Shown: positions 9,333 to 15,127 of the stretch, one piece after another
How positions within the stretch are numbered: the stretch's first letter is position 1
Layout of the letters: every line of letters begins with the position of its first letter
NCBI GenBank assembly: GCA_001871475.1
Contig: MNVE01000012.1
Location: 1-32,863, forward strand
Reading direction: 5' to 3'
Origin: Candidatus Micrarchaeota archaeon CG1_02_47_40
GTDB taxonomy: Archaea; Micrarchaeota; Micrarchaeia; Anstonellales; CG1-02-47-40
Length of the DNA: 32,863 nt
Notes under the pieces: generated by a model
The model's input: only the letters and a program-made list of their open reading frames with translations
The model's database searches: none
Told to the model about the DNA's origin: nothing
Made by a program: the position numbers and the translations under genes

Positions 9333-10244
9333 TCACTGATAATTTGATAGTGTAATGGGATTGAAAAGCTTATCCGTTAGGTGGTTTGAGTTTAATTGGA
9401 GTCTGGATATCAATGCAGGCGATAAATATACTGATTCGTACGTGATGTCGTTCATGCCCAAGAGGGTTGCTTGTGTAGAGCGTCCGGCATTGATTTCTAT
9501 GCGCCGCAAGCCGAGGCTTTTTGGGAGTTCGCGGCCATAGCTCTTATTGCCTCGTCTGCCGTCATAACTCAAAATGAACGAGATATTGTCATAAACCAAG
9601 TCTTTCAATTCCAAAACGAGTTCGTTAAAATCGATGCCGTTGTAATATCTGGAGTCGCGATTTTGGCATACCCCTTGATATGGCGGATCCAGATACACTA
9701 CATCGTCTTTGGAGATGTGCTTAAGTATATCTTTATAATCTTTGCAGCTTAGCTGTGTTTTTCCTTTTAGGAGTTTTGAAACTGCAAAAATATCGCGGCG
9801 CATGTTATACGGGGATTTCCCAAGCCGCCGATTATCCGGACTCTGATTAAACTCGCCTTTGCTGTTGTAGCGGACTGAAGCTTTTACGCAACGGGCTAAA
9901 AGATAGAGCAGGCACGCAGAATTTTCGGTTTCATTAAATCTGTTTCGGGTAGTCAGATAAAAATCTTTTTCAATGCCTTTTTGCGAATTCCAAATATCTT
10001 CGTATTCGTCTGATATTTTGCGCGGGTTGTTTATTATCTGCTCAAGCAGACGGATAAGCGGCTTGTTGATGTCGTTGAGATAAAAATACTCGGCTTTTTT
10101 GTGGTAAGCGGCTGCGATAGAAATTGCTGCAGAGCCGGAGAATGGTTCAACAAGATAATTTATGCCGCTTGGGAAGACGGCAAGTATAGAATCTGCAATA
10201 TTTCTCTTGCTTCCTTGGTAAGGTATTGGATGCGGAACGGACAT
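9333..10244 (-). CDS. D12-class (Dam-like) DNA N6-adenine methyltransferase
   Basis: 303 residues. The alpha-class order is clear: PYQGSKR (8-14) binds near the cofactor, VEPFSGSAAI (32-41) is motif I, and DPPY (186-189) is catalytic motif IV. Between them lies a recognition region of about 120 residues (70-180). The enzyme methylates adenine using S-adenosylmethionine. Its partner is very likely the HNH nuclease directly downstream. A TATA-like stretch (10274-10284, about 35 bases upstream) gives the locus its own promoter. Methylase plus nuclease plus zinc ribbon form one three-gene unit with lower G+C than the neighbouring housekeeping genes, consistent with transfer. Confidence 0.9.
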   Translation of the reverse strand: MSVPHPIPYQGSKRNIADSILAVFPSGINYLVEPFSGSAAISIAAAYHKKAEYFYLNDINKPLIRLLEQIINNPRKISDEYEDIWNSQKGIEKDFYLTTRNRFNETENSACLLYLLARCVKASVRYNSKGEFNQSPDNRRLGKSPYNMRRDIFAVSKLLKGKTQLSCKDYKDILKHISKDDVVYLDPPYQGVCQNRDSRYYNGIDFNELVLELKDLVYDNISFILSYDGRRGNKSYGRELPKSLGLRRIEINAGRSTQATLLGMNDITYESVYLSPALISRLQLNSNHLTDKLFNPITLSNYQ

Positions 10245-10774: not shown

Positions 10775-10825
10775 CAGGAATAGATTATGCAGGAGAAGGG
10801 TTAAAAAACCGCCCGCGGAGGTTCG

Positions 10826-10909
10826 CACCTTAAAAGTTTCCGATATTTTCAGTATTAAACTCGCTCACACCTTAAAAGTTTCCGATATTTCCGGTATTAT
10901 TACCTCAAA
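10826..10909 (-). repeat. 42-bp tandem duplication of the 3' end of the aCPSF2 gene
   Basis: The bases encoding the tail EISETFKV occur twice, 42 bases apart (inside the gene and just after its stop). Because 42 is a multiple of three, reading past the TGA would continue in frame and repeat ISETFKV, then enter the rpoK frame. Confidence 0.8.
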
Positions 10910-13399: not shown

Positions 13400-15127
13400 T
13401 TACTTCTCCCCCGTCTTCACCTGCACGCCTGCCTCTTTTTTCCGCAGGGGGAGAATGAGAGGCGAGTAAAGGGAAGCTTGATGAAGGGGAAAGTTCTTGA
13501 GTTTTGGCTCTTTCAGTTTCATGAAAAGCTGCCCCTTTGCAAGGAAGGAAGGGGAATCTTCGCTGGCGCATTTTTTTTGCAGAAGCTGGCGCTTGCGCTC
13601 AAATTCACCGGCTGTTTTCCGCAGATAGGTTATTTCATCCTCATCAAGCAGTTCATCAACGAATACAAACAGCTTTCCGTATTTTTTCTGTGCGTGCGGA
13701 GCAGCATTGAGTATGGCGGAAAATTCATCCTTTAATTCCAGCAGAATTTTGTTTTTTGCGCTTTTTCCATTTGCAAGAATGTATTCGGCGTATTTTGTCT
13801 TTCCATTGATGCCGCAGGCGTCAACAGGTGTCCGTAAACCTCCGCGGGCTAAAGCCCGAGGTTTGCAGGCGGAACGCCTGCAAAATTTTGCAACGCTCTG
13901 CGTTGCAAACGTCTTCCGCAACAGTAGATGCTTTAGGCGGAAGCCTCGGTTCGAACGAAGAGGGTGCGCTCCAACACCGTGAGAGCAGGCATGACGAGAA
14001 TCGTATCTGTTCTGCTCGCACGGTGTTCCTTCTCCGTCTGAAGGCGGAGGCTTCCGCGCACCCGCGGAGGTTCGTGAGGACGCCGCATCATCATGGAGGA
14101 TGGGAGAGGGCAGAGTCAGTCTCTTCCTTTCCCTTACGCCCTTCCCTTCAGGCACTATTATTGAGCGCACGGGAACTATGCCTGCCGCATTTCCGCAGAC
14201 GAAAGCGGAATCCGCATTTGCCATTCTTTCAAGGGAGATGGGCTCGTATTTTATTTTACAGCCTATCTGTCCCGTTATCTTCTCCACAAGAAGGAAGGTT
14301 ATTCCGCGCAGGCGGTTTTCAGGAGGCGCAATCACTATTGAGTTTCCCTCTATTATTGCAATATTGTCCCCGCCTCCCTCCACTATGCCCCCATCCGTGC
14401 CAGTAAATATTATCTCCACTGCATCAGGGTAAGTCACTCCGAAGGATTTTGAAACAAGGGAAAGCTGGTAATTGCTCGCAGCTTTATTGTTTGGAAATTG
14501 AACGGTGCGTGGAATATCATAAAGAAGCGCCCTGCCCCCTTCTTCCTCTGCCCGCTTTCCCAAGTAAGAGCCAAACGGCATCCCTGCAAGCGCAAGCTCC
14601 GGCTTTCCCAAATCCTGCCTCAAGCCGATTGTGTATCCGTGAGGAAAATAAACAAGCGGGCGCAGGTAAATGATTGCCGCTTCCTTTCCCCAAATATCTT
14701 TTGGTGTTTCCCTGTCCCAGCCATTCAGCACGCACACACGCGCCATTTGCGCAAGCATCTCTTCATCGGAAATTTCCGGGAATTCGTAGCCCCTGCCCCC
14801 TAAATTCACGCTCTCGCGCAGGCGGGCAAAATTGTCTTTCGGATGGAAGATGCCGAGGCGGTGCTTCCCGTTCTTCTGCCTGAACACCCTTGCCTGCATC
14901 CCCTCCCAGAAGCAGTTTGCATAATGCACGCTTGGGGAAAGAAAATCTATCTGCGCATCCGCTATCTTTGAGAGAACGTCGCGCCTTTCCCCTTTCTCAT
15001 CCTGGGAAAAAAGCATAAAATAGTTGTAAGCGGCAGTTGTTCCCTGCTTGGAAAAATTGCCGCGCGCAAAGGAAACCATTGGGATGACGCTCTTTGCATC
15101 TATGGGGCGCAGACTCCGCCTGGGCAT
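13400..15127 (-). CDS. ilvE: Branched-chain amino acid aminotransferase interrupted by an in-frame palindromic insertion
   Basis: 575 residues, against the usual 290-360. The fold-type IV aminotransferase core is recognisable: SPSVHYANCFWEGMQARVF (64-82), the PLP lysine in FPNNKAASNYQ (K215), GGIVEGGGDNIAII and CGNAAGIVPVRSI. After residue about 332 an Arg/Ala/Ser-rich stretch of about 105 residues intervenes before the family's final segment NGKTKYAEYILANGKSAKNK (441-460). That stretch is encoded by the MITE-like element at 13837-14072 plus flanks. A low-complexity tail after about residue 520 is also atypical. The start may be the ATG at 15079 instead, since 15127 overlaps the pilin gene by 28 bases. 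It catalyses the last step of Ile/Leu/Val synthesis if still active. Confidence 0.8.
   Translation of the reverse strand: MPRRSLRPIDAKSVIPMVSFARGNFSKQGTTAAYNYFMLFSQDEKGERRDVLSKIADAQIDFLSPSVHYANCFWEGMQARVFRQKNGKHRLGIFHPKDNFARLRESVNLGGRGYEFPEISDEEMLAQMARVCVLNGWDRETPKDIWGKEAAIIYLRPLVYFPHGYTIGLRQDLGKPELALAGMPFGSYLGKRAEEEGGRALLYDIPRTVQFPNNKAASNYQLSLVSKSFGVTYPDAVEIIFTGTDGGIVEGGGDNIAIIEGNSIVIAPPENRLRGITFLLVEKITGQIGCKIKYEPISLERMANADSAFVCGNAAGIVPVRSIIVPEGKGVRERKRLTLPSPILHDDAASSRTSAGARKPPPSDGEGTPCEQNRYDSRHACSHGVGAHPLRSNRGFRLKHLLLRKTFATQSVAKFCRRSACKPRALARGGLRTPVDACGINGKTKYAEYILANGKSAKNKILLELKDEFSAILNAAPHAQKKYGKLFVFVDELLDEDEITYLRKTAGEFERKRQLLQKKCASEDSPSFLAKGQLFMKLKEPKLKNFPLHQASLYSPLILPLRKKEAGVQVKTGEK
13837..14072. 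mobile_element. MITE-like palindromic element inside the aminotransferase gene
   Basis: About 236 bp bounded by perfect 12-bp terminal inverted repeats, AACCTCCGCGGG (13837-13848) and CCCGCGGAGGTT (14061-14072). Nested inside are TGCAGGCG-GAA-CGCCTGCA (13864-13882), TTTGCAACGC-TCT-GCGTTGCAAA (13887-13909), GCGGAAGCCTC (13937-13947) with GAGGCTTCCGC (14047-14057), and a 16-bp arm pair with one mismatch (13973-13988 and 14012-14027). It encodes no protein of its own, and the host frame stays open across it. Confidence 0.7.

Follow-up and report, generated by a model that had tools for sequence, protein, structure and literature searches.

In-frame insertion of an IS200/IS605-like palindromic mini-element family in conserved genes of Micrarchaeota

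How a palindromic insertion can lie inside a protein-coding gene without interrupting its reading frame is the question raised by one locus in the 32,863-nucleotide stretch of DNA from Candidatus Micrarchaeota archaeon CG1_02_47_40 analyzed here (the window). The host gene, an open reading frame of 575 amino acids on the minus strand (13400-15127), encodes a class IV, branched-chain-like aminotransferase, as recognized by Pfam and NCBIfam, with homology that stops at residue 323, shortly before a 236-nt palindromic block, and it is uninterrupted by stop codons across the whole of this block. The first-pass annotation had proposed an in-frame, MITE-like element with perfect 12-bp terminal inverted repeats, and the repeats (AACCTCCGCGGG at 13837-13848 and CCCGCGGAGGTT at 14061-14072, plus strand), the several palindromes nested between them, and the open host frame were all recovered exactly. 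The element is a member of a previously unnoticed Micrarchaeota family that has repeatedly inserted in working genes without loss of the frame. Judging from its sequence features, it is probably a non-autonomous element of the IS200/IS605 type that is moved by a Y1 transposase supplied in trans and that genes tolerate as long as the frame is kept.

Under the boundary rule of the family (TCAC/..GTTCAC, with the slash marking the border), the net insertion comprises positions 13834-14073 on the minus strand, equal to 240 bp or 80 codons, which keeps the frame; the earlier figure of about 105 added residues is thereby reduced, the remainder being unaligned linker flanking the insertion. On the minus strand, the insertion is bordered by TCAC (14074-14077) on one side and by host sequence following TTTAC on the other, with the AACCTCCGCGGG arm on the right-end side of the element, and both arms co-vary across the family. 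The right end carries an IS200/IS605-like hairpin, CGGGC-TTTA-GCCCG (13845-13858, minus strand), a module that likewise terminates TnpB and Y1 elements within the same order. The core stem, formed by GGGTGCGC (13962-13969, plus strand) and its partner GCGCACCC (14056-14063, plus strand), is identical in both full copies of this genome and in most of the family, while two perfect 10-bp hairpins outside the core (13862-13884 and 13887-13909) are absent from the second full copy. A 55-bp palindromic element, AACACCGTG..CACGGTGTT (13973-14027), is nested in the loop. The 236-nt block folds at -127 kcal/mol, compared with -85 +/- 5 for dinucleotide shuffles (z = -7.9), and the window contains 12 perfect hairpins against 1-7 in controls, a modest general excess.

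The 1.15-Mb genome to which the window belongs (G000) contains only two full copies and one lone end. The second full copy, 179 bp in length (contig C4, 54529-54707), has identical ends, a shared core, and different inner hairpins, and the paired positions at which it differs from the window copy tend to change on both sides, as in CTAAAGC/GCTTTAG versus CTGAAGC/GCTTCAG. The lone end, reported previously as an extra terminal-repeat copy and verified exactly at 10812-10825 (plus strand), lies some 40 bp beyond a gene for a beta-CASP ribonuclease and adjoins a diverged duplicate of the 3' end of that gene. Both of the other element ends in this genome (L005:1240-1355 in C4 and window positions 10812-10900) adjoin such diverged copies, of about 33-36 bp, of the neighboring gene's 3' end, the genes being gatD and the beta-CASP ribonuclease, and the duplicates stop at the GTG target; duplications near the element were also seen at L114, L199, L200, and L213. 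Elsewhere in the window, the open reading frame at 9333-10244 (minus strand) is a candidate D12-class adenine DNA methyltransferase, judged by eye. Further copies of the 55-bp unit are dispersed in the genome at C11:270624, C15:164969, C11:178614, and C1:111818, and at L006:1428-1536 (C1) the palindrome is nested within another copy of itself. Larger family members, including that of the window, contain additional hairpins within loops, and other small palindromes may have entered these loops later.

The prediction of a dispersed family was extended well beyond this genome. A first covariance model, built from the two full copies and applied to 99 relatives at E<=0.1, detected elements in 21 of them, one weakly; a second model (R2), built from 23 sequences, produced 76 matches at E<=1e-6 in 27 of the 301 genomes of the phylum Micrarchaeota, with one to eight per genome. 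These dispersed mini-elements measure roughly 80-240 bp. When 84,980 species were scanned with the exact core pattern, 18 stretches matched, derived from Micrarchaeota, Burarchaeum (class Micrarchaeia), one contig labeled Diapherotrites, and archaeal metagenome-assembled genomes without a phylum in their title, and no bacterial match was obtained among these species. Mobility is evident in one genome with four 111-bp copies, identical at 110-111 of 111 positions and each at a different CCAC site, and Burarchaeum has five similar copies. In the literature searched, which was covered in part, no report of Micrarchaeota elements of this kind was found.

The evidence for a family of in-frame elements rests on other host genes rather than on the aminotransferase. 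In chorismate synthase (AroC), a 43-codon in-frame insert is spanned by a single Pfam match that extends over the full model (E 6e-116), and a PCC-domain protein likewise bears a 43-codon in-frame insert across which its Pfam match runs (E 6e-25). An in-frame insert of 65 codons lies within the CM_2 domain of a chorismate mutase-prephenate dehydratase, and that of a Ca-transporting ATPase lies between two halves that each strongly match solved structures. Within alanyl-tRNA synthetase (AlaRS), the insertion point falls within codon 3 and the upstream ATG stays in frame; a CCA-adding enzyme has an in-frame element near its start, and additional in-frame, stop-free copies occur in a PMT-like membrane enzyme and a TPR-like protein. 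The same CCA-adding enzyme (L138:1174-3111, genome G011, C106) seems to carry another insertion, unrelated to the first, within its second domain, where the Pfam match falls into two stretches. Orientation and codon phase vary between host genes, with both orientations and several phases represented and many gene copies antisense to the host gene. In Burarchaeum, three copies introduce in-frame stops into genes, so that frame-keeping is what survives in some genes and not a property of every copy. Lengths divisible by three were counted in 18 of the 28 entries with a CAC, TAC, or GAC left boundary, which is only suggestive because many of these entries share descent.

Against this background, the case that the aminotransferase of the window is intact is good but not proved. 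The extra segment is missing from remote aminotransferase homologues of the same order and other copies of the repeat exist, the reverse, in both respects, of what had been named beforehand as speaking against an insertion. Codon usage in the tail 3' of the element resembles that of a gene, and the frame it fits is the one used by the catalytic part; the element itself shows no such usage. The proposal that the tail is a last conserved segment of the enzyme is not borne out by homology, since neither phmmer nor a 6-sequence HMM gave a significant match of the tail to remote homologues, and shuffled sequences scored equally; for this reason, intactness falls short of proof. No empty aminotransferase site was seen, and the sole genome of the same family that was searched is without the gene. 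An alternative would be that the gene is already broken, its frame staying open only because a GC-rich palindrome happens to lack stops, and its tail being a remnant. Two of the three gene-strand frames are stop-free in the element, the open frame by itself has a sizeable chance probability, and the non-significant tail homology points in the same direction; the shared frame of tail and catalytic part, together with the recurrence of in-frame copies in unrelated conserved genes, argues against this alternative, which we regard as unlikely.

The structure of the ends indicates the type of element involved. Written on the strand opposite to the plus strand of the window, the family plan is TCAC/(T)GAAC..GGG-TGCGC-GGAAGCC-hairpin-GAGCGCACCC..GCCTAAAGC..GGAAGCC-GGGC-TTTA-GCCC..GTTCA/C. 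Most copies have TTCAC, TCAC, or CCAC as the left flank and GTTCAC as the right end, and several copies of genome G011 occupy TTGAT-like sites. The only signal resembling a target duplication is the CAC..CAC identity at the insertion borders, which an IS605-type right end also accounts for. The right-end module, consisting of GGAAGCC, a TTYA-loop hairpin, and TTCAC, is common to TnpB and Y1-transposase (IS200/IS605-type) elements of the same order, and the last approximately 33 bases follow the same plan as the TnpB right ends, e.g., GGAAGCCCACGCCTTTAGGCGTGGGTGATTCAC. In two Y1-transposase (IS200-type) elements, the right-end hairpin is located immediately 3' of the tnpA stop, and these elements and family members are about 90-93% identical across 29-34 bp. 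IS200/IS605 elements have left and right hairpin modules, and a second TTNA-loop hairpin, as expected of such a pair, was identified in the first half of about 17 of 52 copies by a strict rule (about one third). The label MITE-like accordingly holds for a mobile mini-element in frame and not for its ends, which are IS200/IS605-like rather than those of a classical MITE.

The connection with Y1 elements is through the right end. Neither an autonomous partner with the same terminal inverted repeats nor the left end of a parent transposon was found, and the TnpB neighbors examined lack the full mini-element, with weak R2 matches stemming mainly from the right end. Applied to Y1 loci, R2 recovered a single full element, which is the AroC copy in L163; L158 and L169 gave weak matches to the right end. 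Y1 genes occur in 7 of 21 carriers versus 14 of 78 non-carriers, a weak co-occurrence, and in the genome of the window only as fragments at contig ends. Two of its contigs (L076 and L077; C10:1-240 and C15:1-240) share their opening sequence, a Y1 transposase fragment plus a terminal hairpin; the assembly was therefore probably interrupted at these points by a repeated IS200-type element. Additionally, the right-end hairpin of this genome's own TnpB element (L074:1321-1450, C11) is apparently split by further small hairpins, and a 544-aa Cas12f/TnpB-like protein (L075, C12:32389-35028) is closely followed by a CRISPR array with the repeat GTTTCAGCGCACGAATTAACGAGATGAGAGATGCAAC, apparently a compact system of the Cas12f type.

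The terminal repeats, 10-14 bp in length, pair and co-vary in nearly all copies, with most positions of the terminal helix varying on both sides. Mismatches in this helix are about equally G.T (19) and A.C (22), without strand bias, and the pairing therefore gives no sign of selection acting on a single RNA strand and would fit repeats, or a required fold, at the level of DNA. This observation bears on the possibility that the element is an omega-RNA-like guide module, with TnpB acting in trans to cut empty alleles via the transcript, so that the element homes by RNA guidance. In known TnpB systems, it is the right end that gives rise to the guide RNA's 3' end. The right end of the family, GGAAGCC included, matches TnpB right ends, and CTAAA/TTTAG and CTGAA/TTCAG tend to co-change between the core and the right-end loop. 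If such guidance were real, the in-frame form would spare the host gene while the element homes. The unbiased pairing of the ends, a TnpB distribution that does not clearly track the element, and the antisense position of many gene copies weigh against it, making this explanation quite improbable; we give equally little credence to its fuller form, in which the host mRNA or a transcript of the element itself ends in a TnpB-type hairpin plus a guide from the flanking gene. Removal of the element from RNA, as an intron or self-splicing RNA that leaves a normal protein, agrees with the very stable fold and the conserved internal stems and is nevertheless scarcely credible, given that the inserts in conserved genes are stop-free and frame-keeping, which splicing does not need, that Rfam gives no family at gathering score for the window and no fit to the elements at E<=0.01, that the terminal repeats lack strand bias, and that three copies contain in-frame stops. 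The best relevant Rfam match below threshold, to HgcC (E 0.04-0.08; seen in one family member and in one TnpB right end), is not claimed.

For the preferred reading, a Y1-mobilized element of the IS200/IS605 type, a sequence of events may be proposed. The element would have passed through a single-stranded intermediate and entered the aminotransferase gene on the 3' side of a TCAC site, with transposition presumably catalyzed in trans by a Y1 (TnpA) transposase. Because the 80-codon net insertion is stop-free in the frame of the gene, the translated protein would gain an Arg/Ala-rich segment separating the catalytic domain from the tail, and it may well remain functional. Selection would purge copies that are out of frame or that introduce stops, so that those persisting in needed genes are in frame.

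Within the literature searched, this would be the first archaeal mobile family found repeatedly in frame in conserved and probably needed genes, those at issue being the genes for AroC, AlaRS, the CCA-adding enzyme, the Ca-ATPase, and the aminotransferase. The family also ties terminal-inverted-repeat mini-elements to right ends of the TnpB type in DPANN archaea. Whether proteins gain segments from selfish palindromes was asked for Rickettsia but has been little explored since (PMC10969869), and the family makes the question testable in a second domain of life.

Several known systems resemble the family in part. With IS200/IS605 and TnpB (IS1341-type) elements it shares the TTYA-loop right-end hairpin, the TTCAC terminus, and insertion 3' of a short motif, whereas the mini-elements contain neither a tnpA nor a tnpB gene and possess terminal inverted repeats, which classical IS200/IS605 elements lack. 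The enterobacterial RU, MITE-like repeat units with intragenic ORFs, are small mobile repeats with open frames fused to host ORFs, a feature that recurs here (PMC2759123); they differ in their ends, and the present family has no recognized parent sharing its terminal repeats and was found only in Micrarchaeota-like archaea. The PATEs of Haloquadratum, as described in the consulted portion of PMC3119063, are archaeal, transposase-free elements with near-terminal palindromes related to the IS605 type, without target duplication and invaded by smaller repeats. Near-terminal IS605-type palindromes are also present in the Micrarchaeota family (clear at the right end, with the left module in about one third of copies), and its nested 55-bp unit resembles the invading repeats; however, PATEs are by definition without terminal inverted repeats, so that the family is not a PATE by class definition, and that portion of the source does not mention in-frame gene insertions. 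Rickettsia palindromic elements (RPE) are dispersed palindromes of about 150 bp, which often lie in frame within metabolic genes that are unrelated to one another and whose translation is predicted (PMC10969869). The analogy to RPE drawn in the first-pass annotation is strengthened by the further in-frame insertions in conserved archaeal genes, with the qualification that no single frame is used and that genes are broken by some copies. The Micrarchaeota family differs from RPE in its domain of life, its IS200/IS605-like ends and target, and its low copy number, and each RPE family encodes a conserved peptide in one frame, whereas frame and orientation vary here. It is not filed as RPE, because its frame is not fixed and the likeness is one of description; it is best read as an archaeal analogue of RPE that would work alike.
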